Below, in pieces: positions 618 to 32,669 of a DNA stretch of 33,712 nt. The stretch comes from a virus, in the IMG/VR virus record IMGVR_UViG_3300031758_000297, positions 1 through 33,712 of that record; one strand, written 5' to 3'. Position numbers and translations under genes: made by a program. The notes beneath the pieces are model-generated. The model ran no database searches and had not been told where the DNA came from. It saw nothing but the letters and a program-made list of their open reading frames with translations. Numbering within the stretch: the first letter of the stretch is position 1; each line of letters starts with the position of its first letter.

Positions 618-631
618 GAAAAGGAAAAAAA

Positions 632-814: not shown

Positions 815-839
815 TAATTAAATTTAAGGACGTATAATA

Positions 840-1316
840 ATGGCAAGAGGTGGAATGAGACCAACAGCACCGCAAAACAATCCTATGAATGTTTCTGCGC
901 GTGGTGGTAATGGTCAAAGCGGTGACGCTACACAAGCAGCCAAATATGTCCCAGGTCTCCCTTATGGAGAAGGACAGGCTCTAATGCAAACGCAGCAAGC
1001 TTCTCCTTTGGCTGCGGCTCCGAGTATTGAACAATCAAGTATGCCTTCGGGCCTCGCATCAGCCGCAGCCTCACAATCAGTTGTACCAATGAATGCACCA
1101 ACCTCAATGCCAAATATTCCAGTTACTGACGGGGCTGATTTTGGACCAGGCGTAGGTATGGATGCTTTAGGTTTAGGCAGTCGCGATCAAGCAGCAGATG
1201 ATGCTTATGCAGCGCAAATTGCCGCTTATATGCCAGCTTTATTAACTATTGCAGCAAATCCTAATACATCAAACATGACACGTATGATTATTAGAAAACT
1301 CAGGGACCAAATTTGA
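840..1316 (+). CDS. Hypothetical structural-region protein (158 aa)
   Basis: A Met/Gln/Ala/Pro-rich, low-complexity protein opening MARGGMRPTAP. It has a KYVPGLPYGEG segment about 35 residues in, and a C-terminal helical patch (YAAQIAAYMPALLTIAAN) that ends in a basic tail. From memory, proteins with a QAAKY-PG-PYGEG motif occur directly after the portal gene in actinophages, with unknown function. AAGGA at about 826-830 provides a ribosome site. The stop overlaps the TTG start of the next gene (TTGA), indicating translational coupling to the giant protein. It may be a minor head protein or a chaperone for that product. Confidence 0.65.
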   Translation: MARGGMRPTAPQNNPMNVSARGGNGQSGDATQAAKYVPGLPYGEGQALMQTQQASPLAAAPSIEQSSMPSGLASAAASQSVVPMNAPTSMPNIPVTDGADFGPGVGMDALGLGSRDQAADDAYAAQIAAYMPALLTIAANPNTSNMTRMIIRKLRDQI

Positions 1317-4300: not shown

Positions 4301-6670
4301 AGTCAATTTGGTGAAGCATATACTGCGCGTGGTTCTAGAGGTTTAGGTACAGAACTTAACGTAAGAGACGTTTCTAATGCCGGTACTTATGAATCACAGG
4401 TAACTGGTTATTCTTCAGCATTAATGAGAGATTTAGAATTTACTGGTCAAGCAACTATTACCCCTGACATGGTAAACTATTACGAAGAATTTGCAAGAGC
4501 TCATAATAACATATTAATGAATGACTCTACAACAAGGTATTTGTTAAGTAAATATAAGTTATCAAATGATTGGGACAAGGCCGCTAAACAAACAGAAAAC
4601 TGGTTAAGAAATGCGCCAGAAGGTAAGGCTGCTGCTAAAAGACTTAGTCCTTTATCTGTTAATAAAGATGCACCTGTTTCTTTAGGTTTAGCTTCTGATG
4701 ATATTGCTGAGTATATTCAGGTAATGGTTAATAATACTAAAAATCTTATTCCTGAAGGAACGTTTAAAGACGAACTTGTAGACAGAATTATTAAACGTAA
4801 AGTTTTTACACCAAATGAATTGCGTAAAATGTTTCCTGATACAAGTTCATTGTCACCAATAGTTGGTAGAAAACTTGAAGAAGATTACACTAGAAATATT
4901 GCTAAATCGTTTAACAAATGGATTAATCAAGCATTTAAAGTATTAGGCACAATACCTGAAGATAAATGGGCAAGACTTCCATTATACGATACCCTTTACA
5001 GAAATGATTTTACTCAAAGAGTAATGTTAAGTGAAGCTTTAAAAGGCGGAGCTTTAACTTCAGCTGAAATGGGCAGATTAATGAAAGCTGCTCACACCCA
5101 ATCTGTACGCGAAGTTAATAAAATTCTTTACACAGTTATTCGCAAGAGTAATCTTGGTGGTTTAACCTTTATCCGTATGATTTCACCATTTTTTGGTGCT
5201 CAAGAAAACGCTATAAAAACTTGGGCACGCTTAGTTGGTCGTAATCCAGTAATCTTAAACAGAGCACAACTTATTTGGACAGCACCTAACCGTGCAGGGT
5301 TTGTTACAGACAGAGATGGCGAACCTATTGAGCAAGAAGCATTAAGCTCTGATGGAACAATTTGGTTAGAAGTACCGCAATCATTGCAAAAACTTCCTGG
5401 TCTTAACTCATTAAATCAAATGGGTATACCTAAGAGATCTTTAGATATCGTTTTCGGTGGTGGTTTTGAACTACCTGTTGGTCCTTATGTAGCAATTCCG
5501 GCTTCTACCATTGTTAAAAAGAAACCAGAACTTGAAGAATCATTAAAATGGGCTTTACCTTTTGGTCCTGAGCGCAATGCTGTGATGGCTATGATTCCTA
5601 CTTGGATGAAACGTCAAATCGTTAAGACTCAAGGTCAAGATAGCCCAGAATTTGCTCGTATGTACCAACTAATTTGGACAACTGAGCAACATAAAGCACG
5701 CGAAAATGGCACACCATACAAAACTCCACAAGAGATTGAAAAAATGGTTAAAGCATTTTACAATATGCGTACTATTGCTAACTTAGTTCTTCCTTTCTCA
5801 CCACGTTTTGATTCACCATACCGTATGCACATGGATATGTGGCGTGAATACCAAAGAAAATTTGGTAAAGATGCTGATGAAATGTTCTTAAAAGATCATG
5901 AAGAATTCTTTGATCTAGCAATTAGCCTTTCACAAAATGTTGGTGGAGTTCAAGCATCTGTTGATGCTGTTTCTGCTACTAAAGCTAATAAGGAACTTGT
6001 TTCAACACTTTATGCAACTGAACCATCATTAATTGGTTTGATAGTAAATAACCCTACAGGTTATGATTTTTCTCAAGCAGCTTACGAATGGCAATATGCT
6101 ACACCAGTTACCCCTGGTTCTAAGCAAACATTTCGTGGTACTTCAGATCCTTTTGAGGTTCAAAGACGAAATGAAGCAACAAAGGGTTGGGTTAAATACA
6201 GACAGTTTATGTCTACCCAAGTTGAACCAGTTTTAATGGATCGTGGAATAAGCTCAATTCGTGATCGTAGGGCAAAAGATCTTGCAGCTATGCGTAATGA
6301 TTTTATTACTAAACTTGGTACAGAAAATGTTGCTTGGCGTGATGACTGGTTGGATACTGACGGATCTAAAACTGGTCGTGTAATTCGTGGTCTTCAAGCA
6401 ATTCTAAGTGATGAAAAGTTTATGCAAGTAAATGCAAATAATCCTACTTGGAAATCTGTTGCTTTGTATCTTCAATTAAGAGATCAAGTTGCTGATGAGT
6501 TATCACAACGTAGAGTTAAATCTTTAGGTGCTAAAGCTAATATAGGAATTGCTCAAGCATTTGATGCAGCAGTTGGACAATTAAAACAACAAGATATTGG
6601 ATTTAGTGATCTTTATGATAGATTTTTATCTAATGATCTTGTTTACGACAAATTTACAGTGGGTGAATAA
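1313..6670 (+). CDS. Giant virion protein, putative ejection/internal protein (1785 aa)
   Basis: By far the largest gene, starting at a TTG that overlaps the previous stop by 4 bases and ending with an ATGG overlap with the next gene. No enzymatic motif was recognised. Visible are many charged helical stretches (a coiled-coil-like part at roughly residues 700-730), a segment LLRLGYTTRNAVDSQLRI near residue 640, and a conserved-looking block near 1290-1330 (IRMISPFFGAQENAIKTWA). It is too poor in long heptads and hydrophobic segments to be an ordinary tape measure. Its place before a transglycosylase protein and a Gln-rich protein parallels the podovirus internal-core proteins (T7 gp14-gp16), so delivery with the DNA into the host is inferred. 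Other kinds of large head protein are possible. Confidence 0.55.
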   Translation: MIDLNERLGFSERITRLGKNLGGAVLSPAKLVWDVATAPLNDAEEFNGISNTLKTSVGNFVKSVGRPIGNLLSDIDAINRTFIREPLGTASLAIWEMRNNDVDFSAAWEKAWEARNEVSLGQSLAANIFSNTFTRSAFVDESKGANLFNEFDIFNKEERDKVFKQSAFGRIASGSFDFTAQLFGDVTLVGGKVAKGVRLGEAGISSLKRFKTPEELQVAVFREIDLAKEAQVALRDGVEGVVNKYSTPIKNYRDNGIGYALSTDFVKSSDDPGTLGYLLGTAKTDDEVAFTMRAALGDKTALTELQKLRPSNAAAMNKMFGNLSEADKNVIAPLFDPQTGRILDINENPKALSEAGFEYDDLYQNNDFFKKFVDTFESPSQKGVGTTDKMVTRTFGTSERYKRFEDFIAKGRVTKLLGNPKPGSSTVEFFQPTRWNRAYARVTWAAGERPAYIANINSPDSYQEILASVNRARKVIGNQKVDAAGKMIYEGFSADDASRIIKEYSAATTPEQRSIVILKLEEEVVNKVAQKHGISSERAKEIFDGNTRAKQSALASFKERGYGLDKNGDLIKVPIYESQTANHMPIMDFDVLDRTIQNNLSVLKGPLTLKDSVVDLADVMQDLFKVGVLLRLGYTTRNAVDSQLRIMAAYGPMIALKNIPKGIGNFITNASTVPGRLVDNIKVWRGKETVSSYRSRIDVEARQLGKQIGEIESNIKALDDKIAKVEAGPVIPEFQAEGYTVDESLIIKFGNDQSVQKVIDKQNEIFVNNPRFLKDVDKEFYDTVEYPVSDEMNEILSYTRSKAQEGVLKKKGLFPLKVILDGLEGRGPLGQVGGPEYIEAIIKRGRADYVDKVDDFGINTQGVVQAELSPGGFGKGEWEQISITDGRSKTRYVKVDWFPSTAKKNEFIEEAKERFYRESYTPDELRASLKAQEEQHAAKYLQNWDPDTSLYYGEKQNLTTELENLRLKYNSIVDDIAKIDAPITKKTIGQEDIIIPSQFGEAYTARGSRGLGTELNVRDVSNAGTYESQVTGYSSALMRDLEFTGQATITPDMVNYYEEFARAHNNILMNDSTTRYLLSKYKLSNDWDKAAKQTENWLRNAPEGKAAAKRLSPLSVNKDAPVSLGLASDDIAEYIQVMVNNTKNLIPEGTFKDELVDRIIKRKVFTPNELRKMFPDTSSLSPIVGRKLEEDYTRNIAKSFNKWINQAFKVLGTIPEDKWARLPLYDTLYRNDFTQRVMLSEALKGGALTSAEMGRLMKAAHTQSVREVNKILYTVIRKSNLGGLTFIRMISPFFGAQENAIKTWARLVGRNPVILNRAQLIWTAPNRAGFVTDRDGEPIEQEALSSDGTIWLEVPQSLQKLPGLNSLNQMGIPKRSLDIVFGGGFELPVGPYVAIPASTIVKKKPELEESLKWALPFGPERNAVMAMIPTWMKRQIVKTQGQDSPEFARMYQLIWTTEQHKARENGTPYKTPQEIEKMVKAFYNMRTIANLVLPFSPRFDSPYRMHMDMWREYQRKFGKDADEMFLKDHEEFFDLAISLSQNVGGVQASVDAVSATKANKELVSTLYATEPSLIGLIVNNPTGYDFSQAAYEWQYATPVTPGSKQTFRGTSDPFEVQRRNEATKGWVKYRQFMSTQVEPVLMDRGISSIRDRRAKDLAAMRNDFITKLGTENVAWRDDWLDTDGSKTGRVIRGLQAILSDEKFMQVNANNPTWKSVALYLQLRDQVADELSQRRVKSLGAKANIGIAQAFDAAVGQLKQQDIGFSDLYDRFLSNDLVYDKFTVGE

Positions 6671-12014: not shown

Positions 12015-12015
<1 letters not shown>
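11668..12015 (+). CDS. Immunoglobulin-like/BppU-type small structural protein (115 aa)
   Basis: An all-beta protein opening [18 protein letters not shown] and continuing with alternating hydrophobic and Thr/Ser strands. It has the [20 protein letters not shown] signature seen in small Ig-like phage proteins and the N-terminal domains of BppU-type baseplate proteins. These usually attach fibres or decorate the tail. The stop codon overlaps the ATG of the collagen-like gene by one base, so the two are coupled. It may be the adaptor that docks the collagen-like fibre; that link is inferred from position. Confidence 0.6.
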
Positions 12016-12938
<923 letters not shown>

Positions 12939-12940
12939 TT

Positions 12941-13585
12941 ATGCCGAAACCAATGTATGTTTGGTCTGGTACACAGTGGGTGAGTGTTGCAACTGAGGTT
13001 GAGTCTTTGGCTGGTTTTGCTACTCAATCTTATGCTGACAATGTTCCTGGAACAAGATTAATTGTTCCTACTAGCGTTGCCGTTGGTTCAGGTTCAGGTT
13101 CTGTTAACACTAACGGAACTGTTACTTTCAGTGGTGCAAGCACAGTTGCTATTAATGGTGTATTCAGTTCTGCTTACGATAACTATAAAATTGTTCTTAA
13201 TACTGTTGGCTCTAGTGCTGCAAATATGTGGTTTCGTATGAGAAATAGTGGCACTGATGAAACTGGAAACAGTTATTATTCACAATTGGTTGCAGGAAAT
13301 AGCACAACAATTTCTGGTTCAAGGTCACAAGCAACTTATGGTTGGGCTGGACAAGTTAACGGCACACAATATGCTGGTTTTGAAGTAGCAATGTATAATC
13401 CTTTTAATACAAGAAATACTGTTTGGCATTCTATTAATACTGAAATTAGTGGTGGTGCTTCTGCTGTAAGATTTTATAATTTTACTGGCGCTTTGGCTAC
13501 AACTACTTCTTATAATTCTTTATTGTTGTATCCAGATAGCGTTAATATTACAGGTACTGTTTCTATCTACGGATTGAAGAACTAA
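12941..13585 (+). CDS. Tail fibre/receptor-binding protein, paralogue 1 (214 aa)
   Basis: A short N-terminal segment (MPKPMYVWSGTQWV, then FATQSYADN, typical of fibre trimerisation necks) is followed by the module shared by five genes in this window. The module contains PTSVAVGSGSGSV, a TFSGAS-T-AINGVFSSAYDNYKIVL stretch and a GTVSIYGLKN ending. The centre, rich in Ser, Asn and Gly, differs strongly from the paralogues. These features suggest a beta-structured trimeric tip that binds the host surface. It follows the collagen-like gene by two bases and is probably the next part of the same fibre system. Confidence 0.65.
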   Translation: MPKPMYVWSGTQWVSVATEVESLAGFATQSYADNVPGTRLIVPTSVAVGSGSGSVNTNGTVTFSGASTVAINGVFSSAYDNYKIVLNTVGSSAANMWFRMRNSGTDETGNSYYSQLVAGNSTTISGSRSQATYGWAGQVNGTQYAGFEVAMYNPFNTRNTVWHSINTEISGGASAVRFYNFTGALATTTSYNSLLLYPDSVNITGTVSIYGLKN

Positions 13586-13586
13586 A

Positions 13587-14570
13587 TTGACTAAACCACT
13601 TTATTTTTATAACGGTTCTACATTTGAACTCGTAGGACCAACAACACCACAATCACCAATCGCCTACCAAACAAGTGCACCAACAGCACCAGCAACAGGC
13701 GACCTGTGGATAGACTCCGACGGGGATGTTGACACATACAACCGTCAACTAACCAGATACTACTTCGTTGCAACAGCAGGACAAACTTCTATCACAGGCA
13801 TTGACGCAAACGGTTTAACCCTAGCCTATGTGGCTGGGTCTGAGGCTGTGTATGTGAATGGTGCTTTGCAGGTTCGTGGTCAGGATTACACTGCCACTAA
13901 CGGCACATCAGTTGTTATGTCAAGCGCTTTGGCTGTTAATGATGTTGTTGAAATTTTTGCTTATACTGCGTTCACTGTTGCTAATGCTTACACTAAGTCT
14001 GAGACTGATGGTGTGGCTGCTGCTGCGGCAGGGTTGCGTATGGTTGTACCAACATCAGTAGCGGTTGGTAGCGGTACTGGTTCTGTGGATGCTATTGGTA
14101 ACGTAACATTTAGTGGTGCATCTTCTGTAAGCCTTAATGGTTGTTTTACTAGCACATACGATAATTATAGAATATCTTTTGCAAATATGTCTAACACAGC
14201 AAGTGCTAATATTCAGTTAAGATTTCGTGTTTCTGGTGCTGATAATTCAACTTCTAATTATCGTTATGCTGGAAATCAAACTGGAACAGATGGAAGTTCT
14301 GGGATTTCTGGTGCTATTACTACATTTATTAGGATTGGTTATCACACAACAGGACAAAGAAACTTTATAACTGGTGTTGATGTAATTAATCCATTTTTAA
14401 CTATAAATACAGGTACTTGGAACTCTAACTTTGATGGTAGTGGTGCAAACTCTTATGCAACAATGACCACAGGTATGTTTAATGGAGATGTTTCTTTTGA
14501 CGGTTTTACTGTTTTTCCTGCCTCTGGTAATATTTCTGGCACTATTCGCGTTTACGGTTACAAGGACTAG
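13587..14570 (+). CDS. Tail fibre protein with extra N-terminal domains, paralogue 2 (327 aa)
   Basis: It starts at TTG 13587 one base after the previous stop. Residues about 1-50 carry a docking segment with DLWIDSDGD. Residues about 55-135 form a beta domain (FVATAGQTSITGID, VYVNGALQVRGQDYT) common in phage fibres, and residues about 130-150 a short neck (AYTKSETDGVAAAAAG). The remaining 175 residues are the shared VPTSVAVGSG...VYGYKD module. It is the longest of the family and may be the scaffold to which the shorter paralogues attach. Third-position base preference changes sharply near 13826 (A/C-ending before, T/G-ending after), which suggests the protein was assembled from parts of different origin. 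Confidence 0.7.
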   Translation: MTKPLYFYNGSTFELVGPTTPQSPIAYQTSAPTAPATGDLWIDSDGDVDTYNRQLTRYYFVATAGQTSITGIDANGLTLAYVAGSEAVYVNGALQVRGQDYTATNGTSVVMSSALAVNDVVEIFAYTAFTVANAYTKSETDGVAAAAAGLRMVVPTSVAVGSGTGSVDAIGNVTFSGASSVSLNGCFTSTYDNYRISFANMSNTASANIQLRFRVSGADNSTSNYRYAGNQTGTDGSSGISGAITTFIRIGYHTTGQRNFITGVDVINPFLTINTGTWNSNFDGSGANSYATMTTGMFNGDVSFDGFTVFPASGNISGTIRVYGYKD

Positions 14571-14579
14571 GGGAGAACA

Positions 14580-15152
14580 ATGACTAGGTCAAGACAAACC
14601 GCTGATTGGGGTTCACGTGCAGGGTTGGCTAAGATTGTGCCTTCTTCTGTTGCTGTGGGTTCAGGTACAGGTTCAGCAGATTCTTTAGGAACAATAACCT
14701 TTTCAGGTTGTTCAAGTCTTTCATTAAATGGTTGTTTTACATCTACCTACAATTATTATTCAATAATGTTTGTTGGTGATGGTTCTACAACTGCAGCAAA
14801 TTTACAATTTCGTTTGAGAGTTGCTGGTACTGATAACAGTACTGCAAGTTCTTACATTTCACAATCAGTTCAAGGAAACAGCACTACTGTTGCTGGTGTT
14901 AGGGAAACTACTAATTATGGTGTTCTTGGGCAAGTTGGTAGCGGAAACCCAAACGCTTTGGATATGAAACTTTATAAACCATTTTTGGCTGAAAAAACCG
15001 CAATACTAGCACAGATGCAACAGGCAGAAGATGTGTCACGTGTTCGCAATGTATCAGGTATTCATAATCAAAATACTTCTTATGATGGAATTACTTTTTT
15101 TCCAGGTACAGGAACTTTTTCTGGAAGAATGTCAGTTTACGGTTACAACTAA
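14580..15152 (+). CDS. Tail fibre/receptor-binding protein, paralogue 3 (190 aa)
   Basis: A short N-terminus (MTRSRQTADWGSRAGLAKI) leads directly into the shared module: VPSSVAVGSGTGSAD, SLNGCFTSTYNYYSI, RLRVAGTDNSTASSYISQ and a GRMSVYGYN ending. The centre (SVQGNSTTVAGVRETTNYG and KLYKPFLAEKTAILAQ) is its own. GGGGAGAACA at 14570-14579 provides the ribosome site. The leading AGLAKIVP segment is nearly the same as in the paralogue at 21171, so these two are probably the closest pair. The role as a host-binding tip is inferred from family and position. Confidence 0.65.
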   Translation: MTRSRQTADWGSRAGLAKIVPSSVAVGSGTGSADSLGTITFSGCSSLSLNGCFTSTYNYYSIMFVGDGSTTAANLQFRLRVAGTDNSTASSYISQSVQGNSTTVAGVRETTNYGVLGQVGSGNPNALDMKLYKPFLAEKTAILAQMQQAEDVSRVRNVSGIHNQNTSYDGITFFPGTGTFSGRMSVYGYN

Positions 15153-20257: not shown

Positions 20258-20587
20258 ATGTCAAGTACTTATAAAGTCTTAGCGCAATCAGCGCCAAGCG
20301 CAACAACAAACACAGACGTTTACACTGTTGGATCAGGTAAGTCAGCTGTGGTTTCTACTATCACGGTGTGTAACCGTTCGGCTTCTGCTGCCACGTATCG
20401 TATTGCGATTCGTGTTGCTGGTGCAACGTTGGCTAATGAGGATTATATTGCTTTTGGTGCTACTTGTCCGGCTAACGATATGATTGCTTTGACTCTTGGT
20501 TTGACTTTGGCTGCAACAGATGTTGTTACTGTGTATGCTTCTTCTGCTGATTTGAGTTTTGGTTTGTTTGGCAGTGAGGTTGCTTAG
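20258..20587 (+). CDS. Small beta-sandwich tail protein (109 aa)
   Basis: An all-beta protein with alternating strands (TDVYTVGSGKSAVVSTITVCNRS, ATYRIAIRVAG, NDMIALTLGLTLAATDVVTVYASS) and a small C-terminal extension (FGLFGSEVA). Very similar small proteins are frequent next to fibre genes of aquatic phages, from memory, but their function is not established. AAAGGAAAAAA precedes the ATG. The stop overlaps the GTG start of the next fibre paralogue, so expression is coupled. It may be a fibre-attachment or decoration subunit. Confidence 0.65.
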   Translation: MSSTYKVLAQSAPSATTNTDVYTVGSGKSAVVSTITVCNRSASAATYRIAIRVAGATLANEDYIAFGATCPANDMIALTLGLTLAATDVVTVYASSADLSFGLFGSEVA

Positions 20588-21168
20588 TGGCTATTAATCG
20601 TCTTAATCCTGATTATCCGGATGCTGGGATAGTTCAACTTATGCCGTCTTCGGTTGCGGTTGGTTCTGGTTCTTCTACTGTTAATGGTAATGGTCAAGTA
20701 TCTTTTAGTGCTAGTTCTAGTGTGTCTTTAAATGATATTTTTAGTTCAACTTACACAAATTACAAAATACTAATAGATACAGATTCAACGGAAGCAGATA
20801 CTGCTTTAACTATGCGTATGAGGGTTTCAGGTGCAGATAATTCTTCTAATAATTATCGTTGGGCTTCTGGATATAAAGACACAGGTGCTGGAGCAATTGC
20901 AGGACAAAGTGGTTCAGGTTTAACAAGTTCTTTTAGAGTTATGGCGCATTCCTCTAGTGGTAGAAGTTTTAGCTCTTTAGATTTTTTTAATCCTTTTACA
21001 GCAGAAGAAACAGGTTATGTAGGTAATTATTTTCAAATTGCTTCAAGTGGTTTTGCACAATTTGTTGGTGGTAATATGTCTGTAACAACTTCTTACACAG
21101 GTTTTACTTTAATTACATTGGCTGGAACTATGACTGGTTCAGTTTCCGTCTACGGGTATAGGAATTAA
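20587..21168 (+). CDS. Tail fibre/receptor-binding protein, paralogue 4 (193 aa)
   Basis: The GTG start lies in the stop of the preceding gene (TAGTGG). A short N-terminus (AINRLNPDYPDAGIVQL) leads to the shared module with PSSVAVGSGSSTVNGNG, SVSLNDIFSSTYTNYKI and MRVSGADNSSNNYRWA, ending TGSVSVYGYRN. The centre (KDTGAGAIAGQSGSGL, FFNPFTAEETGYV) is distinct from the others. The module is the same as in the three genes at 13-15 kb, although 5 kb of unrelated genes lie between. A receptor-binding tip is the likely role. Confidence 0.65.
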   Translation: MAINRLNPDYPDAGIVQLMPSSVAVGSGSSTVNGNGQVSFSASSSVSLNDIFSSTYTNYKILIDTDSTEADTALTMRMRVSGADNSSNNYRWASGYKDTGAGAIAGQSGSGLTSSFRVMAHSSSGRSFSSLDFFNPFTAEETGYVGNYFQIASSGFAQFVGGNMSVTTSYTGFTLITLAGTMTGSVSVYGYRN

Positions 21169-21170
21169 TT

Positions 21171-21752
21171 ATGGCTATTGGTAGAATAAACGCAACACTG
21201 TCCGGTGTGCAACCTGGTGGGTTGGCTAAGATTGTTCCAACGTCTGTGGCTGTTGGGTCTGGGTCTGGGTCTGTTGACGCTAACGGAAACGTAAGTTTTA
21301 GTGGTGTATCAAGTATTAGTTTGAATGATGCATTTAGTGCAACGTATAGAAATTATCGCATTGTATTAAATCATACAAACAGTAGTGAAGCAGGAATTTT
21401 AATGAGATTAAGAGTATCAGGTTCAGATAACTCTTCAGCAAATTATGGACGTGTAAGGTTTAATAATAGAGCAGGTTCAAGTGGTTCTACTGGTGGAAAT
21501 ACTGAAACCTCTTGGTTAGTTAATAGTGGTTCTAATGCTAGAAAAGGAAACAGTGTTATAGATGTTTCTGATACTTTTACAACTGAAAATGCTTCATATG
21601 TTAGTTTAGGAAGTAGTAATAACGGAACTAACACTTATGGTGATTTTTGTGCAGGAAATATGTCTGTAACAACTTCATATACAGGTTTTACTTTTTTTCC
21701 AGAAGCCACTTCTACAATCACAGGTTCACTTTCAATTTATGGTTACAACTAA
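21171..21752 (+). CDS. Tail fibre/receptor-binding protein, paralogue 5 (193 aa)
   Basis: It begins MAIGRINATLSGVQPGGLAK, then the shared PTSVAVGSGSGSVDANGNV, SISLNDAFSATYRNYRI and RLRVSGSDNSSANYG motifs, and ends in GSLSIYGYN. It follows paralogue 4 after two bases and shares its length exactly, which points to tandem duplication. The centre has Ser/Asn/Gly-rich loops (NNRAGSSGSTGGNTETS) different from paralogue 4. The pattern of conserved flanks with a diverged core fits trimeric tips that evolve new receptor specificity. Confidence 0.65.
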   Translation: MAIGRINATLSGVQPGGLAKIVPTSVAVGSGSGSVDANGNVSFSGVSSISLNDAFSATYRNYRIVLNHTNSSEAGILMRLRVSGSDNSSANYGRVRFNNRAGSSGSTGGNTETSWLVNSGSNARKGNSVIDVSDTFTTENASYVSLGSSNNGTNTYGDFCAGNMSVTTSYTGFTFFPEATSTITGSLSIYGYN

Positions 21753-22416: not shown

Positions 22417-23397
22417 TTGTTTAGACACTTCTCTAGCGTTTTCGCTATAGTTGTGTTAACAATTTTTGTGGCACAACCATCTTACTCTGATGATGTAACA
22501 ATTAACTTAGATAACATTACCCCTTTTGTGGATGTGCCGGTTACTGTCACTGAACCTGTTGATGCAACAATTCAAACAACTACTGGCACACCACAAACTA
22601 ATCCTGGGTTCATTGATTCTTGGATTGAACTATGGCAAGGTGCTATCAAACTTGCTGCTAATGATGATGGTGCACATAGTGCAACCAATGTTTTAGCTTC
22701 TATTATCACTATGCCTTTAGTGGCTGGTGAATATTTTATTCGTGCAACTTCTTTTGCTTATGCTTGTTGTGTTCAGTTCCCTACTGGGTCTTATTTGTTG
22801 TCTACCAATTTATTAGTAAATACGCCAAGCCCATCACCGACAGTGACAGAACAGACACCAGAGCCAAGCCCTTCGCCAACTGAAAGTCTGACACCTACTC
22901 CAAGCCCATCTGAGACTTCAAGTGTGCAACCATCTCTTGAGCCTTCTCCGACTCCTTCAGAGACTCAGTCACAACCAGAGAGTCTTCCCGATCAAGATAA
23001 TTCTCCAGTGGTTCAACCGTTTCCAGAGATTTTGCCAGACGAGCTAGTTGTAGAACCTCAAGAATCTGTGGTTCCAGTTGAGCCAGACGTTTCAGAGCTA
23101 CCTGTTGAGGACTTAACATTTATTGACGACCTTTCAGTTGTTGACGAAGTTGTACAAATTCCAGAATATTTTGTACAAGATGATTCATTAAGTTTGCCAG
23201 AGTCAGTCCAACAAATATTTGAATCCATAAGTTCTGCATTAGAGTCCATTCCTGGTGGCGAGCAAGTTCTTGCTGCCGCCCAATTTGTTAATAATCTTGG
23301 TTCCGAGTTCACACCTGAGGAACGCCGTGAGGCGCAGCAGGTAGTTCTTGGTGCAATTATCGTATCACAACTAGCAAACCCTAGGAGGGTTAAATGA
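22417..23397 (+). CDS. Secreted Pro/Ser/Thr-rich protein of the lysis region (326 aa)
   Basis: It starts at TTG 22417, straight after the endolysin stop. A signal peptide is clear (FSSVFAIVVLTIFVAQPSYS, then DD). Residues about 28-135 form a beta domain containing WIELW and NDDGAHSATNVLASIITMPL, resembling secreted pre-peptidase C-terminal-type domains. Residues about 138-195 are PSPSPT-type repeats, typical wall-spanning linkers. The next 70 residues are very acidic (VEPDVSELPVEDLTFIDDLS). A C-terminal helix pair includes EERREAQQVVLGAIIVSQLA and ends in basic NPRRVK. The product should be exported and stand in or through the wall. A role in lysis or superinfection exclusion is inference. 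Confidence 0.65.
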   Translation: MFRHFSSVFAIVVLTIFVAQPSYSDDVTINLDNITPFVDVPVTVTEPVDATIQTTTGTPQTNPGFIDSWIELWQGAIKLAANDDGAHSATNVLASIITMPLVAGEYFIRATSFAYACCVQFPTGSYLLSTNLLVNTPSPSPTVTEQTPEPSPSPTESLTPTPSPSETSSVQPSLEPSPTPSETQSQPESLPDQDNSPVVQPFPEILPDELVVEPQESVVPVEPDVSELPVEDLTFIDDLSVVDEVVQIPEYFVQDDSLSLPESVQQIFESISSALESIPGGEQVLAAAQFVNNLGSEFTPEERREAQQVVLGAIIVSQLANPRRVK

Positions 23398-25815: not shown

Positions 25816-25845
25816 GCCCCTTTTAGGGGCTTATTTTTGTTTTTT
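25816..25845 (+). terminator. Rho-independent terminator
   Basis: A perfect 6-bp GC-rich stem, GCCCCT (25816-25821) with AGGGGC (25825-25830), has a TTT loop and is followed by TTATTTTTGTTTTT (25831-25844). This is the clearest terminator in the window and separates the late structural genes from the replication genes. Confidence 0.85.
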
Positions 25846-26208: not shown

Positions 26209-26401
26209 TGAACTGCAGCCAACCGGCCCACAGTTCAATCTCAGAGGTATACCCACGCATGTTTGTTTATGTGGATCAAAAGTCTGGGATGTTAAATGTA
26301 TGTTTGAAGAAAACGAAATCTCAATGTATTTTCTGGATATGCACTGTGCGTCATGTGGTAGTCCAGCAACTGCACCGACTCCAGAATTGGATTGTGAATG
26401 A
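26195..26401 (+). CDS. Small zinc-ribbon protein inside the split nuclease gene (68 aa)
   Basis: ATG 26195 opens MKHIDELQPTGPQFNLRGIP, followed by CxC (C24, C26) and CxxC (C51, C54), four likely zinc ligands. MYFLDMHCASCGSPATAPTP follows. From memory, small proteins with this GPQFNLRGIP/CxCGS/CASCGS pattern occur as free genes in actinophages, function unknown. The frame differs from the nuclease (+1). Its start lies in the N-terminal nuclease part, and its stop overlaps the ATG of the C-terminal part (ATGA), so all three are coupled. It seems to be a complete gene inserted into another gene. Confidence 0.7.
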   Translation: MKHIDELQPTGPQFNLRGIPTHVCLCGSKVWDVKCMFEENEISMYFLDMHCASCGSPATAPTPELDCE

Positions 26402-27081
26402 CTAAACAAATAGCAGAGAAGTATTGGCAAGAAACATTTCAAAAACTTATTGATGCCGAAGTTGTTAAAACAGATACCATTCCCTCAGAGTGGCGTGCTG
26501 GTGGTCGTGCAACTAAGGCATATCCTAATAAAGAAAATGACATCTGGTGGTCTGACAATGGACCAAAGATGGTTGATAATTTTATTCAATGGTGGCACAA
26601 TTCTAAATGGTCTATCTATTATGGTAAAAGCAACACACCACATATTGAAGCCGAATACAATGTAAAGTTTGGTAACGTACCAGTTAAAGCATTTGTTGAT
26701 TTAATTGCTGTAACACCAGATGGTGAACTTGTTGTAGTTGATTACAAAGCTGGTGCTTACATGCCGGACTACAATATGCAACTTGGTTTATACGCTTGCT
26801 GTATGGAAATAACAGAAGGCATAAGACCAAACAAAGGATTCTTCTATAATGCTCGGCAGGGTATCATGGAAGATGCAGGTGACTTGTCACGTTGGACAAT
26901 ACCGGTGTTTACCGAATTGTTTAGACAATTTGAGAAAGCACTTGAGCTAGAAATTTTTTTGCCAAATATTGGTATGACTTGTAAGTCATGTTCAGTGGCA
27001 AAATACTGCTATGCTTCTGGTGGGGAGTTAGCAGATAAGTATGACCCACTTGCATCTATAGATCAAGGAGAAACAAAATGA
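26398..27081 (+). CDS. PD-(D/E)XK nuclease (RecB/Cas4-like), C-terminal part (227 aa)
   Basis: It carries the remaining catalytic motifs of the nuclease: Asp101 (AFVDLIAV), Asp115-Tyr116-Lys117 (VVDYKAG) and Gln128/Tyr132 (MQLGLYA). C195-x2-C198-x5-C204 near the end matches the last three ligands of the Cas4/AddB-type Fe-S cluster. WRAGGRATKAYPNKE near the start is typical of actinophage members. The H/E motif and the first Cys lie on the separate 26029-26208 polypeptide in the same frame. Related enzymes digest DNA ends in recombination or replication. ATG overlaps the zinc-ribbon stop; AAGGAG near its end serves the next gene. Confidence 0.75.
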   Translation: MTKQIAEKYWQETFQKLIDAEVVKTDTIPSEWRAGGRATKAYPNKENDIWWSDNGPKMVDNFIQWWHNSKWSIYYGKSNTPHIEAEYNVKFGNVPVKAFVDLIAVTPDGELVVVDYKAGAYMPDYNMQLGLYACCMEITEGIRPNKGFFYNARQGIMEDAGDLSRWTIPVFTELFRQFEKALELEIFLPNIGMTCKSCSVAKYCYASGGELADKYDPLASIDQGETK

Positions 27082-27452
27082 GTGCAGACACACCAGGAGT
27101 GAAGACGCAACTTAACTTCAAAACCTCACAAGGTACATTAGTTAACGTTTATCTTTATTCATATGACGAAGATGAAATCAGAACAGCATTAGGAGCAATC
27201 GCTAATGTTACACCTGATATTAACGCAGTTGAAACACTATACAACGCACAAGGTGCTTTGAGAGAAGCACTTAACGCTACACCTATTGAACAACCAAGAA
27301 TGCAATCAACATCAAATGATGGTGCAAAGGCTTGTAAACACGGTGGAATGACATTCCGTACTGGTCAAAGTGCTAAGGGACCTTGGAAAGGTTACTTTTG
27401 TCCTTCTCCAAAGGGCACCGTAGATCAATGCGAACCTCAATTTATCCGTTAA
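27078..27452 (+). CDS. Putative ssDNA-binding or zinc-binding replication accessory protein (124 aa)
   Basis: Residues 1-35 form strands (KTQLNFKTSQGTLVNVYLYSYD), residues 35-70 a helix pair (IRTALGAIANVTPD, ALREALNATPI). The C-terminal 40 residues have C86, H88, C108 and C118 in CKHGGMTFRTG and YFCPSPKG-DQCEP, a likely zinc site. The gene overlaps the nuclease stop (ATGA) and has a strong AAGGAG ribosome site at 27065-27070. In actinophages, proteins of this plan sit beside the Cas4-like nuclease and have been called SSB-like; that is recollection, and the OB fold is not evident to me. Confidence 0.5.
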   Translation: MSADTPGVKTQLNFKTSQGTLVNVYLYSYDEDEIRTALGAIANVTPDINAVETLYNAQGALREALNATPIEQPRMQSTSNDGAKACKHGGMTFRTGQSAKGPWKGYFCPSPKGTVDQCEPQFIR

Positions 27453-27481
27453 TACAAGAACAATAAGAGAAGGGAGTAACT

Positions 27482-28321
27482 TTGTTAACAATCAAACAGG
27501 CGGCTGTCCGTCATTTGGATGAACCACAGTTGCTCCCTGATCTTTTTCCTTCGTTAAAACAAGAAGGTATTAGATTTAGACGTGGACAAGTAACAATGAT
27601 TGCTGGTCAACCTAACTCTGGTAAATCTTTACTTGCACTTTTTTATGGCATCAAAGCCAACGTTCCAACACTTTATATTTCAGCAGACACAGATGCCTAT
27701 ACCACATCTATTCGTGCTGCAGCTGTTATCACAGGGCATATGGCCTCAAGTATTGAAGAATCACTTAAGAATGACGGTGCTGATTTTTATACCAAAGAAT
27801 TAGCATCACTTAAAAAGATTGAATTTTGTTTTGACCCTTCCCCTACATTGGATGATGTTGATTTAATGGTTAAGGCTTATGGTGAGAAGTATGGCGAATG
27901 GCCTCACCTAATTATTATTGACAACCTCATGAACGTTAGTGCTTTGCACGATAATGAGTGGACTGGTATGCGTGACATTATGAAAGCCTGTCATCACATT
28001 GCTCGCGAGACTGACTCAGCAATTTTTATTTTACATCACACATCAGAAGCAGAGGGTGATCCTTTGTTTCCACCATCAAGACGTGCTATACAAGGTAAAG
28101 TTTCACAACTGCCTGAGATGATTTTGACTGTTGCAATGGAAACCGAGCAATCAGAATTTCGTATTGCTTGTGTTAAAAATAGGTTTGCTAAACACTCTGC
28201 TATGGGCGATAGGTGGATAGCATTAAAGGTAGATGCAAGTCGTATGAAACTGTCCGATGAAGGACTAATTGATAAAGCTAAAAGATATAACGGAGTCATG
28301 AGTGGTCAGACACAACTTTAA
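27482..28321 (+). CDS. RecA/DnaB-type P-loop ATPase (279 aa)
   Basis: Walker A GQPNSGKS at residues 42-49 and Walker B LIIID with Asp147 are clear, followed by the FILHHT sensor strand. Two further regions, RRAIQGKVSQLPEMILTV and the CVKNRFAKHSAMGDRWIAL stretch, match the RecA-like core of replicative helicases and RepA/KaiC-type ATPases. The N-terminal domain of a full DnaB helicase is missing. With the resolvase and primase genes it probably acts as the phage helicase or recombination ATPase. It starts at TTG 27482 with AGAAGGGAG at 27467-27475. Confidence 0.75.
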   Translation: MLTIKQAAVRHLDEPQLLPDLFPSLKQEGIRFRRGQVTMIAGQPNSGKSLLALFYGIKANVPTLYISADTDAYTTSIRAAAVITGHMASSIEESLKNDGADFYTKELASLKKIEFCFDPSPTLDDVDLMVKAYGEKYGEWPHLIIIDNLMNVSALHDNEWTGMRDIMKACHHIARETDSAIFILHHTSEAEGDPLFPPSRRAIQGKVSQLPEMILTVAMETEQSEFRIACVKNRFAKHSAMGDRWIALKVDASRMKLSDEGLIDKAKRYNGVMSGQTQL

Positions 28322-28335
28322 GAGAAGAGTAAGCA

Positions 28336-28689
28336 ATGTCGGCTAAAAATAAAGCCAAAGGTTCTAAGTTTGAAACAGATGTAATGAAATGGTTACGCTC
28401 TAAAGGCTACACAGCTGAACGTTTACGTCAGGCTGGTGCAAAAGATGAGGGTGATCTTGTTGTTTATGTTGCAGGTACACCATATCTGTTTGAATGTAAG
28501 GCAACGAAGAAATTTGATTTGCCACAATTCTGGCGTGAGCTACAAGCAGAAGTAGTTAACTATGCTGAGGCTAGAGGAATAACTGTTGGTCCTATTGGTT
28601 ACGTTGTTGTTAAGAGACGCAACGGTGGTATTGAAGATGCTTGGGTTATTCAATCACTGGATCAGTGGAGTAAACAATATAAGCCGTGA
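28336..28689 (+). CDS. Hjc-like Holliday junction resolvase (117 aa)
   Basis: A small PD-(D/E)XK nuclease of the archaeal Hjc type: N-terminal basic KNKAKGSKFETDV with Glu13, then Asp40 in KDEGDLVV, and E53-x-K55 in LFECKATK. This family cuts four-way DNA junctions formed in recombination and replication; the length (117 aa) fits. It is placed between the ATPase and the methyltransferase, 14 bases after the former and overlapping the latter by 4 bases (GTGA). Restriction-type nucleases share the same fold, so substrate specificity is inferred from family resemblance. Confidence 0.75.
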   Translation: MSAKNKAKGSKFETDVMKWLRSKGYTAERLRQAGAKDEGDLVVYVAGTPYLFECKATKKFDLPQFWRELQAEVVNYAEARGITVGPIGYVVVKRRNGGIEDAWVIQSLDQWSKQYKP

Positions 28690-29330
28690 GACCTAAACTA
28701 TTAGATTTATTTTGTGGTGCTGGTGGAGCCAGTATGGGGTATCATCGCGCTGGTTTTGATGTAATCGGTGTAGATGTTAAAAGACAAAAACGTTATCCTT
28801 TTGAGTTTATCCAAGCAGATGCCAGAGATGTTCTTCGTGACCACGATTTTACAAAGTCTTTTGATGCTATCCACGCTTCACCTCCTTGTCAAATGTTTTC
28901 TAATGCAAGTAATTTAGCTAAAGGGCAAGACAATTATGTTTCCAAAGTTAATATGATTCCTTTAACTAGAGAAGGTTTAATGATGACTGCTCGCCCTTGG
29001 ATCATTGAGAATGTTCCAGGAGCACCATTAGAAAACCCAATAACATTATGTGGTTCATATTTTAAGATAGGTGTTAGAAGACACAGGCTGTTTGAATCTG
29101 GTGAATTTACCATTAAAGGGGTAGAGTGTGACCATAAATCTCAACCTAAAATAGTTGGTGTTTATGGAAAGCTTAGAGATAAGATTCCTGGCGGCGGCAA
29201 AACTGCTGACAGTATTGAAGAAGCAAGAGAAGCAATGGGCATTGATTGGATGATCTGGACAGAGATCGTTGAAGCAATACCACCTGTTTACACAGAGTAT
29301 TTAGGAAAGCAACTGATTGAGGTAGTATGA
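28686..29330 (+). CDS. DNA cytosine-C5 methyltransferase, short form (214 aa)
   Basis: The GTG start overlaps the resolvase stop (GTGA). Motif I DLFCGAGG (residues 7-14) binds S-adenosylmethionine. Motif IV SPPCQ contains the catalytic Cys68. ENVP (108-111), RRHRLFE (131-137) and the C-terminal AIPPVYTEYLG give motifs VI, VIII and X. The region between VIII and X, where the target-recognition domain lies, is only about 65 residues, so the enzyme is well below the usual 330 aa or more. Short phage forms are known. It probably protects phage DNA from host restriction; no matching endonuclease is visible nearby. Confidence 0.85.
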   Translation: MRPKLLDLFCGAGGASMGYHRAGFDVIGVDVKRQKRYPFEFIQADARDVLRDHDFTKSFDAIHASPPCQMFSNASNLAKGQDNYVSKVNMIPLTREGLMMTARPWIIENVPGAPLENPITLCGSYFKIGVRRHRLFESGEFTIKGVECDHKSQPKIVGVYGKLRDKIPGGGKTADSIEEAREAMGIDWMIWTEIVEAIPPVYTEYLGKQLIEVV

Positions 29331-29689
29331 CCGGTAATCATGATATGGTTATGGTACTCAATCATTACGGAACTAAATGTAGTGACGGAAGAAGTTGGCA
29401 AAGCATACGTTGTGTTTTGCACAAAGATACACACGCTTCAGCTTCAATAAGTCCAGATAGAGAAATGTATTTTTGTTTTGTCTGTGACTTTGAAGGAAAT
29501 GTGTATCAGTTAATAATGGAAAAAGAAGGGTTGGATTACCAAGATGCTATCAACAGAGCAGAAATTATCACTAACGGAAACCGCAAAGCGGTATCATCAA
29601 ACTTTAAGCAACGAGGCAGTCTATTACCTCAAATCAAGGGGTATAGACCAAAAGGTCGCAGATACATTCCTGCTCGGTACAGTGACTGA
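29327..29689 (+). CDS. DnaG-like primase, zinc-binding part (120 aa)
   Basis: C29, H32, C50 and C53 (IRCVLH ... FCFVC) form the CHC2-type zinc finger of primases, followed by DFEGNVYQLIMEKEGLDYQDAINRA, which is typical of that domain. The last about 35 residues (KAVSSNFKQRG...) do not look like primase; the expected sequence continues in the +1 frame from about 29576. The ORF overlaps the Toprim ORF by 146 bases. It overlaps the methyltransferase stop (ATGA). Alternatively the two are joined by a +1 frameshift or separated by a mutation. Confidence 0.7.
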   Translation: MTGNHDMVMVLNHYGTKCSDGRSWQSIRCVLHKDTHASASISPDREMYFCFVCDFEGNVYQLIMEKEGLDYQDAINRAEIITNGNRKAVSSNFKQRGSLLPQIKGYRPKGRRYIPARYSD

Positions 29690-30176
29690 TCCGGTTGCTG
29701 GCCATGAACATGGCACAGGTTGCTTATCTATTCCATACATCACTGGCTCTGGTGTTGTTGGTATTAAGTTTCGTAAGATTGATGGAACTAATCCAAAATA
29801 TATATGGCCTACTGGGCAAAAGATTGGTATGTTTAACGTTGAAGATCTTAAAATAGATACCGACACTATAGCCATTTGTGAGGGAGAGATTGATACAATG
29901 GTTTTGTCAGGGTTATGTGGTATACCAGCTGTTGGTGTTGCTGGGGTCACACAATGGAGAGAATGGTTTCCTATGATGCTTGAAGGATACAAGCGCATAT
30001 TTATTTTTGCAGACAACGACCTCAAAGAAGATGGTCGCAATCCCGGTATGGAACTTGCTAAAAGAATTAAAGAAGATCTACGTAATGCAATAGTTGTTAA
30101 TCTTCCTGAAAACAAAGATGTTAATGATGTGTATTTAAGTGAAGGTCCTGATTGGTTTAAGGAGAAGATCGCATGA
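29544..30176 (+). CDS. DnaG-like primase, Toprim part (210 aa)
   Basis: AYYLKSRGI-like sequence (residues about 24-34) starts the part that resembles DnaG. EGEID (113-117) and ADND (156-159) are the acidic Toprim motifs that bind the metals for primer synthesis. The protein lacks a zinc finger, which lies in the overlapping ORF at 29327. ATG 29544 is the first possible start, with only a weak GAAGG about 12 bases upstream. Removing one base near 29576 would fuse both parts as AEIITN-ETAKRYH. A hairpin (ACCGC/GCGGT, loop AAA) sits at 29580-29592. The end overlaps the next gene (ATGA). Confidence 0.75.
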   Translation: MLSTEQKLSLTETAKRYHQTLSNEAVYYLKSRGIDQKVADTFLLGTVTDPVAGHEHGTGCLSIPYITGSGVVGIKFRKIDGTNPKYIWPTGQKIGMFNVEDLKIDTDTIAICEGEIDTMVLSGLCGIPAVGVAGVTQWREWFPMMLEGYKRIFIFADNDLKEDGRNPGMELAKRIKEDLRNAIVVNLPENKDVNDVYLSEGPDWFKEKIA

Positions 30177-30706
30177 CAACAATCATTGGTATTCAAAAAC
30201 CAGACCATTGTTTACTTGTAGCAGACTCACGTACCACAGACGAGGGTGGTCGTGCTTACTCTCATCCAACAGTTGCAAAGATAACTAAACGTGGCAAGTT
30301 TATTATTGCTGGTTCAGGATTAACACAGCCATGCGACATCGTGCAACATATGTGGAAGCCACCATCACCACCGGCACACGCTTACAAAGATTTATATCAT
30401 TACATGATTGAATCAGTTGTGCCATCAATACGTGTGGCATTAACAGTTAATGGTTATCAACCAGATAAAGATTCAACCGAGCAAGACTTTGTTTTTCTTA
30501 TTGCTATTAAAGGAACTATATTTGAATTAGATGAAACACTTTCAGTATTAATGCGAGATGATGGGATCTATGGTGTTGGGTCTGGAGCTCCTTACGCCAT
30601 CGGTGCTCTTCATGCTGGGGCTACATGGAGGCAAGCCATGCAGATAGCGGTGAAAAACAACGTGTTCACCGCTCCCCCTTTCATTACGCATAAGCAGTCC
30701 AAATGA
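30173..30706 (+). CDS. Proteasome beta/HslV-like N-terminal-nucleophile hydrolase (177 aa)
   Basis: After removal of Met1 the chain begins TTIIGIQK. The nucleophile Thr1 is followed at the expected place by Asp17 in ADSRTT and by Lys35 (HslV and proteasomes have Lys33), then the IIAGSG strand. The C-terminal part has GIYGVGSGAPYAIGALHAG with the conserved Gly-Ser-Gly, then a helix. The length, 177 aa, equals HslV (about 175). No propeptide is present, as in HslV. A threonine protease, probably a ring complex, is expected; no unfoldase gene is seen. The gene overlaps both neighbours by 4 bases. Other Ntn hydrolases are the alternative. Confidence 0.75.
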   Translation: MTTIIGIQKPDHCLLVADSRTTDEGGRAYSHPTVAKITKRGKFIIAGSGLTQPCDIVQHMWKPPSPPAHAYKDLYHYMIESVVPSIRVALTVNGYQPDKDSTEQDFVFLIAIKGTIFELDETLSVLMRDDGIYGVGSGAPYAIGALHAGATWRQAMQIAVKNNVFTAPPFITHKQSK

Positions 30707-30909
30707 TTCAAGCCTTTGTTGGTGGACCATTTGACGGAGATGAAATAACAGAAGATATGGAAGGGATAGATGAAGTACAAATTTATCTACTCAACGAAAG
30801 GTCGGAAAAGATTTCGGTCTACGTATACTCGCAAGATGACGAAACAGGAAACTATATCTATGACGGAGAGTTTGCTCCCGAAGAACTGGAAGAGGAAGAA
30901 GATGAATAA
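30703..30909 (+). CDS. Small acidic GPFDG-family phage protein (68 aa)
   Basis: MIQAFVGGPFDGDEI is a start motif seen in many small phage proteins of unknown function. Beta strands follow (VQIYLLNERSEKISVYVYSQD), then the tail is an acidic run (APEELEEEEDE). The gene overlaps the stop of the hydrolase (ATGA) and itself overlaps the next start. A strongly acidic tail could mimic DNA, as in some anti-restriction proteins, but that is speculation. Confidence 0.65.
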   Translation: MIQAFVGGPFDGDEITEDMEGIDEVQIYLLNERSEKISVYVYSQDDETGNYIYDGEFAPEELEEEEDE

Positions 30910-31297
30910 TGACACAAGTGGAATGGGAACAAGTCCTAATGCTTCTAATGAAGCAGGGATTCAAGATAGTAACGCACAACAGATTAACGGAAACAATAAC
31001 CGTAAAGCTCCCACACGCTTCTTCTACGAACACCCAGCAGTTAAAGATCACGGAAGTGGCATAGCTTTAAATGATTTAACATCCTTTATGGAATCGTTTA
31101 ACGATTATGTAATGAGTCGTATCAAAGGTGTTGGTGCTGACCAGTATATGAAATCAACAGGGCAACTATTTGAAACATTTACTGTTCAGGAAACGGTTGA
31201 TGAGTTGCTCGCAGAACTTGCTGACACTATTGCTTACACAAATTTTATTGCTATCAAAGTGATAGCACTATCAAATGCAATTAAGGACAAACAATGA
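30902..31297 (+). CDS. MazG-like nucleotide pyrophosphohydrolase candidate (131 aa)
   Basis: ATG 30902 is preferred (GAAGAGGAAG precedes it); an in-frame ATG at 30770 would lie deep in the previous gene, with N-terminal residues that read as a shadow. The first 35 residues are Asn/Ser-rich and disordered. The C-terminal half is helical with QLFETFTVQETVDELLAELADTIAYTNF, which resembles the EExxE-ExxD helices of phage MazG-like proteins (QxFET-x-ELxEELAD). The metal-binding acids are only partly present, so the call is weak. Coupled to the phosphoesterase gene (ATGA). Confidence 0.45.
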   Translation: MNNDTSGMGTSPNASNEAGIQDSNAQQINGNNNRKAPTRFFYEHPAVKDHGSGIALNDLTSFMESFNDYVMSRIKGVGADQYMKSTGQLFETFTVQETVDELLAELADTIAYTNFIAIKVIALSNAIKDKQ

Positions 31298-32049
31298 AAC
31301 GCATAGTAGTGCTATCGGATATGCAAATACCTTTGCATGACAAGAAAGCAATAAAGGCTGTAGTGAGGTTTGTTAAAGATTATGAACCGGATGAACTTTT
31401 TTGTGTGGGTGATGAAGCTGATTGCTTAGCACCAGCACGCTGGTCTAAAGGATATGCTGCAGAACACAGCAACTTACAAAGAGACCTTGATGAAACCACA
31501 CGCATTATGGGTGAGTTTCGTGAAGCATTAGGAGACTATCCTTTTCATCTTATGAGATCAAATCACGGAGATCGCATACAGAGATACATAGAACGAGATG
31601 CACCAGCACTCGCAACATTAAGAGACTTGAAGTATGAAAAATTATTAGGCTATCGTGATTTAGAAATTACTTATCACAATAAACTTTGGAACTTTGCTCC
31701 AGGTTGGGTAATGGGTCACGGTGATGAAGGACCAACCAGTAGATATTCTGGTGGCACAGCAATGTCACTGGCTAAAAAGATTGGTATGAGTGTCGTTTGC
31801 GGCCATACGCATAAGCTCGGATACCTACACGAAAATAAATCTTTCAATGGGAAGTATGTTTCAAGTCTTTATGGTTTTGAAGTTGGAAATATGATGGACT
31901 TAAAGCAAGCGACCTACCTTAAGGGAGGAAGCGCCAATTGGCAAACAGCTTTTGGTTTGCTGTATATACACAATGGCAAAGTAACACCAGTACCAGTACC
32001 AATAATGAATAACTCATTCGTAGTAGAAGGAAAAGTATACAAATGGTAG
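31294..32049 (+). CDS. Calcineurin-like metallophosphoesterase (251 aa)
   Basis: Metal-binding motifs are in order: Asp9 in LSDMQIPLHD, GDEAD (39-43), SNHGDR (about 89-94), MGHGD (about 146) and CGHTH (about 168-172). In the usual D-x-H the second ligand is Gln11, as I recall for other phage members; it may weaken one metal site. The family includes nucleases and phosphatases; here, next to MazG-like and sigma-like genes, a role in nucleic-acid or nucleotide metabolism is plausible. The gene is coupled to both neighbours by 4- and 7-base overlaps. Confidence 0.75.
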   Translation: MKRIVVLSDMQIPLHDKKAIKAVVRFVKDYEPDELFCVGDEADCLAPARWSKGYAAEHSNLQRDLDETTRIMGEFREALGDYPFHLMRSNHGDRIQRYIERDAPALATLRDLKYEKLLGYRDLEITYHNKLWNFAPGWVMGHGDEGPTSRYSGGTAMSLAKKIGMSVVCGHTHKLGYLHENKSFNGKYVSSLYGFEVGNMMDLKQATYLKGGSANWQTAFGLLYIHNGKVTPVPVPIMNNSFVVEGKVYKW

Positions 32050-32669
32050 AAGAAGACAAGTGGATTAAAGATGTAGCAGATATAGCACAAACTGTTGCCT
32101 ACACAATTACACGAAACTACAAGGGTTATGCAGAAGTAGATGACGTTAAACAAGAGTTACTTGAATGGTCACTCAAGCGTGCAGATAAAATACAAGAGTG
32201 GCTATCAGAAGATCTAAGTAAACAAGAGTATCGCCTTGGTATTAAGCGTTTAGCTAAAACATTTAATCGTATGGCTGATAGATATTGTCGTAAAGAGAAA
32301 GCCAAGAAACTTGGTTACTATGTACACGATGAAGCATTTTATTCAACATCATTGGTTGAAGAATTATTACCAATGGCATTTAGTAATGAATTGATAACAA
32401 AAGATCCAGCAAGTGAGTTTGTTTCTAATGGTGGGGGAGACCCTGCTACAGCAGGATCATTTCTAGCATCAATGTATGACATGCGTATTGCTACCAAAAA
32501 GCTAACCATAGAATTATACGAGATCCTTCGTATGCGCTATGAAGATGGCATGAACTTAGCAACCATTGGTGAGATTTTAAATCTTTCCGAATCAACCATA
32601 AGTCGTAAAGTTAATACTGCTGTTAGACAGATCAGTAAAGAACTTGGTGGCGAATCACCTTGGAATTAA
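32043..32669 (+). CDS. Sigma-70-family-like transcription factor (208 aa)
   Basis: The N-terminal helices (residues about 10-50, VAYTITRNYKGYAEVDDVKQELLE) resemble sigma region 2, with DDVKQE at the usual place of the core-binding motif. The middle is variable and acidic. Residues about 160-205 (ILRMRYEDGMNLATIGEILNLSESTISRKVNTAVRQI) are a clear region-4 helix-turn-helix for -35 recognition. It is the last replication-type gene but one, and could redirect host RNA polymerase to the late promoters. A plain DNA-binding protein without core binding is the alternative. Confidence 0.65.
   Translation: MVEEDKWIKDVADIAQTVAYTITRNYKGYAEVDDVKQELLEWSLKRADKIQEWLSEDLSKQEYRLGIKRLAKTFNRMADRYCRKEKAKKLGYYVHDEAFYSTSLVEELLPMAFSNELITKDPASEFVSNGGGDPATAGSFLASMYDMRIATKKLTIELYEILRMRYEDGMNLATIGEILNLSESTISRKVNTAVRQISKELGGESPWN

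Follow-up and report, generated by a model that had tools for sequence, protein, structure and literature searches.

A proteasome-like N-terminal threonine hydrolase gene in a phage related to the Streptomyces Beephvirinae

The stretch of viral DNA analysed here, called the window below (33,712 nucleotides; IMG/VR record IMGVR_UViG_3300031758_000297), has a G+C content of 0.40 and carries a gene for a small proteasome-like protein within a replication and regulation module. This module comprises genes for a Cas4-like exonuclease, a DnaB-like helicase, a resolvase, a C5-methyltransferase and a primase, followed by the peptidase gene, a metallophosphoesterase and a sigma-like factor. The start codon of the peptidase gene overlaps the stop codon of the upstream TOPRIM primase frame in the tetranucleotide ATGA (30173-30176). 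The genes and regions concerned are:

3-1316, plus strand: terminal part of the portal gene, with the two ORFs that follow; the site of the gene in phages of the sister clade, vacant here
26398-32669, plus strand: replication/regulation module containing the peptidase gene; largely the same gene set is present in Streptomyces phage Immanuel3
29544-30176, plus strand: TOPRIM primase fragment, directly upstream of the peptidase gene (phrog_849, phrog_47, Toprim_3)
30173-30706, plus strand: proteasome-like (group I, HslV/BPH-type) N-terminal threonine hydrolase, 177 aa, ATG start

The primase is divided between two overlapping plus-strand frames, one with the zinc-finger part (29327-29689) and one with the TOPRIM part (29544-30176); genes 58 and 57 of Immanuel3 overlap in a similar manner, and a programmed frameshift is possible. 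A terminator-like stem (GCCCC-TTTTA-GGGGC) with a T-rich tail lies at 25816-25830 on the plus strand, between the gene of a 638-aa protein and the replication module, and tRNA and Rfam scans across the window gave no matches. Elsewhere, five plus-strand ORFs in 12941-15152 and 20587-21752 share a 'VAVGSG(S/T)GS' start region and an end of the 'IYGYxN' type, and are apparently paralogous tail proteins. The ORF at 12015-12938 is collagen-like, and that at 22417-23397 (plus strand) has a hydrophobic N-terminus and, over a long stretch, is rich in Pro, Ser, Thr and Glu.

Judged by its sequence, the phage is related to the Streptomyces Beephvirinae: its major capsid protein shares 53-55% identity with those of this group, and matches to the 638-aa protein encoded at 23805 are limited to Streptomyces phages and two ct2KA10 records. 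These matches, together with the Immanuel3-like replication genes, make an actinobacterial host probable, as the earlier note on this DNA had supposed. In the case of the bacteria themselves, PrcB was matched in 89 of 198 sampled Actinomycetota genomes, and more than half of the sample, including the listed small genomes (1.3-1.8 Mb), gave no such match. Our search found no useful literature on proteasomes of freshwater actinophages or Nanopelagicales.

The likeness of the ORF at 30173-30706 to proteins of the proteasome/HslV type goes far beyond chance. Its product matches the PHROG 1040 'peptidase HslV family' profile over residues 1-175 (E 1.6e-28) and, as had been pointed out, equals HslV in length, with 176 aa in the mature form versus 175 aa in E. 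coli HslV (chain 1e94_A). As a single sequence it stays below threshold in the Pfam scan (Proteasome, 18.3 vs 22.4 bits), and in the NCBIfam scan it reaches 17.6 and 17.0 bits with the HslV equivalogs, whose cut-offs are 137 and 157.75; the archaeal beta model scores 22.3 bits against 17.6 for HslV, all of these values being far under the cut-offs. The AlphaFold2 model of the monomer, built from a 36-member alignment (pLDDT 91.7, pTM 0.88), shows a proteasome beta-type Ntn fold with both of the helix pairs that group I demands, with helices at 68-72 and 74-92 and a C-terminal strand at 170-176 that is followed by no helix. The best solved matches to this model are BPH (Z 17.2), HslV (Z 16.7) and the archaeal 20S beta subunit (Z 16.5), with Anbu also among them (range Z 16.2-17.2) and PrcB of Mtb at Z 15.7. 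Since the rows of BPH, HslV, Anbu and 20S beta (Z 15.5-17.2 over about 160 residues) are largely tied within about 1.5 Z, the fold alone does not decide the subfamily. Model residue 2 pairs with Thr1 in most of the best-matching chains, and the closest viral models belong to phage proteins, of which the first carries an HslV annotation. A structure prediction was among the checks suggested in the earlier note, and its proposal of a proteasome/HslV-type Ntn threonine hydrolase is borne out by the PHROG 1040 match, the confidence of the model and the Z scores of 16-17. The gene is maintained by purifying selection, with dN/dS values of 0.035-0.175 between the window copy and its close relatives, where computable.

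Residues of the active site were tallied in 159 viral copies obtained from two viral-contig searches. Thr1 after the Met, Asp17, the Lys at mature position 35 and the G-S-G motif are all found where they had been predicted, and the catalytic triad is intact. The corresponding codons, together with the pore-loop equivalent, are:

30176-30178, plus strand: Thr1 nucleophile, directly 3' of the start codon; invariant in 159/159
30224-30226, plus strand: Asp17 of the catalytic triad (residue 18 with Met); 159/159
30278-30280, plus strand: Lys33 equivalent (residue 36 with Met, mature position 35), from the alignment with PrcB and HslV; 159/159
30317-30319, plus strand: Gly47 equivalent of the oxyanion hole (residue 49); 159/159
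30449-30487, plus strand: acidic pore-loop equivalent NGYQPDKDSTEQD (residues 93-105), in the place of the BPH acidic loop
30578-30586, plus strand: G-S-G motif with the Ser129 equivalent (full-length residues 136-138); Ser in 129 copies, Thr in 30
30659-30661, plus strand: Asn163 at the position equivalent to Asp166; Asn in 80, Asp in 62, Ser in 15 and Thr in 2 of the 159 copies

The Met at +1, Thr2 and both Gly residues of G-[S/T]-G are invariant as well, whereas the Ser169 equivalent is Thr, with Ser in one copy. The set that characterizes group I (Thr1/Ser1, Asp17, Lys33 and the oxyanion Gly47) is thus present in all 159 copies. The equivalent of the second-shell Asp166, on the other hand, is substituted in 97 of them, with Asn in the window, a feature that the earlier note did not mention; in yeast beta5, the D166N change strongly reduces activity but does not abolish the reaction with inhibitors (PMC4792962). 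In every tallied copy a Met stands directly before Thr1, and between Thr1 and the upstream in-frame stop there are 1-20 codons, mostly six or fewer (160 copies), which leaves nearly all of them without space for a real propeptide. The stretch equivalent to residues 92-106 is 15-19 residues long and has a net charge of -2 to -5 throughout the tallied copies.

Proteins of this kind are already known, both as PHROG 1040 and, in Fuchs 2021 (PMC8665760), as group I of the proteasome-like proteins. In that study, Fuchs, Alva and Lupas described proteasome-like proteins in phages and named PPH as the first true viral member, and they reported finding no AAH gene in phages specific for Actinobacteria (PMC8665760). 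In addition, HslV genes without HslU have been described in a Salmonella jumbo phage (PMC7823757). When a profile of 36 relatives of the window protein was searched against the PDB, BPH ranked first (45 and 34 bits, E 7e-11), ahead of HslV (about 28-32 bits, E about 1e-6) and the archaeal beta subunit (26 bits), and no bacterial PrcB was reported at E 0.01. In a maximum-likelihood tree of 34 proteins, which includes several long branches and has little resolution in its deeper part, the window clade groups with the ct2KA10-type clade (96/97), and both the AAH clade (100/99) and the PrcB clade (100/99) exclude this pair. The two BPH rows pair together (100/99) apart from the window clade, in a weakly resolved deep part of the tree, and the protein L252, from a related phage, falls inside the AAH clade on a long branch. 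By this tree, the family appears as a clade found only in phages and separate from AAH, PrcB and HslV, and the profile ranking suggests BPH and HslV, rather than 20S beta, as its nearest known relatives. The opposite placement, closer to 20S beta than to HslV, which the earlier note had favored, is not sustained by either result.

Comparison with the individual systems suggests a mode of working most like that of BPH (5OVS/5OVT/5OVU; PMC5777263), although membership in BPH, AAH, PPH or HslV is not established. BPH is the top match by fold and by profile and shares Thr1/Asp17/Lys33, the lack of a propeptide, an acidic pore loop and the lack of a known unfoldase (PMC5777263), but identity is 21-25% in structural alignments, the phage protein does not join the BPH pair in the tree, and it has Asn at the Asp166 position. 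HslV (ClpQ) is similar in fold, length, G-S-G motif and catalytic triad; against this, the equivalog scores are far too low (17.0-17.6 vs 137-157.75 bits), the acidic loop contrasts with the short and basic pore described for HslV (PMC5777263), and no HslU/Clp-type gene was detected with the relatives. The proteins of PHROG 1040 and those annotated as phage 'ATP-dependent protease subunit' or 'protease' (phAPEC8, DSL-LC01, Cassita, Hum25) have the same fold and active site at 26-30% identity, yet the window clade forms a separate, well-supported branch (96/97). AAH and PPH (PMC8665760) are likewise group I, phage-encoded and propeptide-free, but the window protein is outside the AAH clade, and PPH is about 140 aa long versus 177 aa and lacks helix H2, which is present in the window model. 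As for PrcB, which has the same Thr1, Asp17, Lys33 and G-S-G, it differs from the window protein in having a propeptide and an alpha partner, and it belongs to another clade and was missed by the profile.

The gene occupies different places in different phages. Among the window relatives it follows the TOPRIM gene in 29 cases, stands between the primase zinc-finger and TOPRIM genes in 32, follows DnaB in 6 and lies near sigma and lysin genes in 13, while in the ct2KA10-type sister clade it is directly 3' of the portal gene (75 loci). On a FastTree tree these five positions are explained by 6 changes, and with midpoint rooting the portal-adjacent place looks ancestral. A peptidase match was found in 14 of 32 records searched, each time as a single copy. 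The slot after TOPRIM may also hold another protein, namely an AAH-type one in L252 (3098-3616) and L253 (3336-3854), whose records (G003 and G004) belong to the capsid clade of the window, and a DSL-LC01-like one in L254 (record G006). An unrelated actinophage fragment, L010, carries a copy that is 77% identical to the window peptidase and adjoins a ribonucleotide reductase gene whose product shares 76% identity with its DSL-LC01 counterpart. Unless the L010 contig is misassembled, this copy and its neighbours indicate that the gene has moved into another kind of actinophage. These data are best explained by a gene that is a mobile accessory of actinophages, bound neither to one genome place nor to one phage type. 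The complete Streptomyces phage Immanuel3, which has a related capsid and portal-to-capsid module, yielded no homologue with either profile, and its similarly placed 168-aa gene was unrelated by eye. There was no match either in three of the eight longest capsid-clade records, a weak absence given that their completeness is uncertain. Regarding a host-encoded relative, a pattern scan of genome contigs gave none, and among 396 Actinomycetota genomes the family profile gave 2 matches at E 1e-6, an absence that is also weak because few candidates were scored; the two are a Streptomyces AAH carrier and a 45-residue partial match. AAH-type genes annotated as 'hypothetical protein' occur on Streptomyces and rhizobial plasmids (L248, 2501-3043; L249, 3001-3546).

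HslV assembles as a double hexamer and BPH as a double heptamer. We propose that the window gene encodes an active, BPH-like peptidase chamber that works independently of an unfoldase and is kept as a mobile accessory of actinophages, a reading to which we give an even chance. It builds on what is established here: the predicted fold, the invariant catalytic core, the lack of room for a propeptide, the charge of the loop, the clade, the position changes and the transfer. The Met would be removed by the host methionine aminopeptidase, exposing Thr1, and since this alone would suffice, no propeptide processing would be necessary. As in BPH, the subunits would probably build a small, closed double ring whose pore loop is acidic and in which unfolded or peptide substrates would be degraded without a dedicated unfoldase; the purpose may be the turnover of host or misfolded proteins, or the disposal of a host factor. 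Three considerations stand against this proposal. BPH was inactive on the standard substrates tried (PMC5777263); the Asn at the Asp166 position may weaken the enzyme, given the effect of the same change in yeast beta5; and proteasome-like folds can be non-proteolytic, as in connectase.

The place directly after the portal gene is the usual one of the head maturation protease, and it is there that the sister-clade gene stands, in what appears to be its ancestral position. In this regard, the protein might process virion proteins during assembly, such as those of the head, the portal or the adjacent protein of about 1700 aa, all the more as the scanned window proteins included no other recognisable head protease. 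We consider this unlikely, because in the window clade the gene lies in the replication module or by the lysis genes, because Immanuel3 lacks a detected homologue in spite of its related capsid and portal-to-capsid module, and because the enzyme is present in a phage of another type (L010); the records of the capsid clade without a match add weakly to this. Moreover, in Microbacterium phage Cassita the homologue lies next to a capsid maturation protease that is distinct from it.

HslV, the nearest well-known relative, depends on HslU. No alpha subunit or unfoldase was identified within the window, in agreement with what had been noticed previously, and PF07724 (HslU/Clp-type AAA+) was matched in none of the 26 related records. 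PF00004 matches in related records are weak and fall in frames of 260-280 aa, and that of G036 was traced to a DnaB-like helicase; as the frames look like this helicase, we rejected them as a phage unfoldase. Any partner would consequently be the host's, and the chamber could use a host AAA+ unfoldase of the ClpX, ClpC or Mpa type, redirecting host proteolysis to substrates chosen by the phage. A pair of ATPase and VWA genes, CobS-like and CobT-like, the latter resembling genes of Gordonia phages, is indeed found upstream of the L010 copy (1178-6406). Nevertheless, the pore loop is acidic like that of the unfoldase-free BPH, unlike the short basic loop of HslV, and the family spans phages whose hosts may not have one unfoldase in common, so that we regard a host partner as quite unlikely and retain the unfoldase-independent chamber.

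A specific ligase or amidase, that is, a non-degradative Ntn enzyme on a proteasome-like fold, is improbable in our view. The replacement of Asp166 in most copies would be compatible with it, and connectase proves that the fold can act as a ligase (PMC8665760). However, connectase lacks helices H1-H2 and carries a two-helix insert (PMC8665760), while in the window model both helix pairs are present and the insert is missing, and the core triad is that of the proteasome. Finally, that the protein replaces, joins or poisons the host 20S proteasome, as the earlier note considered, or a host AAH-type complex, seems highly improbable even for a probably actinobacterial host in a phylum where PrcB is common, because its divergent clade is separate from PrcB and AAH, it is propeptide-free whereas bacterial 20S assembly makes use of the propeptide (PMC8665760), more than half of the genomes gave no PrcB match, and the strong constraint on catalytic residues would be unneeded by a pure poison.

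Three findings go beyond the known group I proteins: relatives of Streptomyces phages have a separate clade, two records from their capsid clade encode an AAH-type protein, and the gene changes its position. The separate clade comprises well over 100 viral loci, mostly in or beside genome modules of Beephvirinae-related phages. Beyond the unfoldase-independent chamber proposed for the window, a wider reading is conceivable, though tentative: actinophages would share such a mobile chamber, and different lineages (this clade, the AAH type and the DSL-LC01 type) would swap in one operon slot, with the gene moving among head, replication and lysis regions and into unrelated phages, as a portable means of takeover or counter-defence by degradation of host proteins. 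Small, propeptide-free and unfoldase-free, this subunit offers a convenient subject for learning how viruses use a proteasome-like enzyme.
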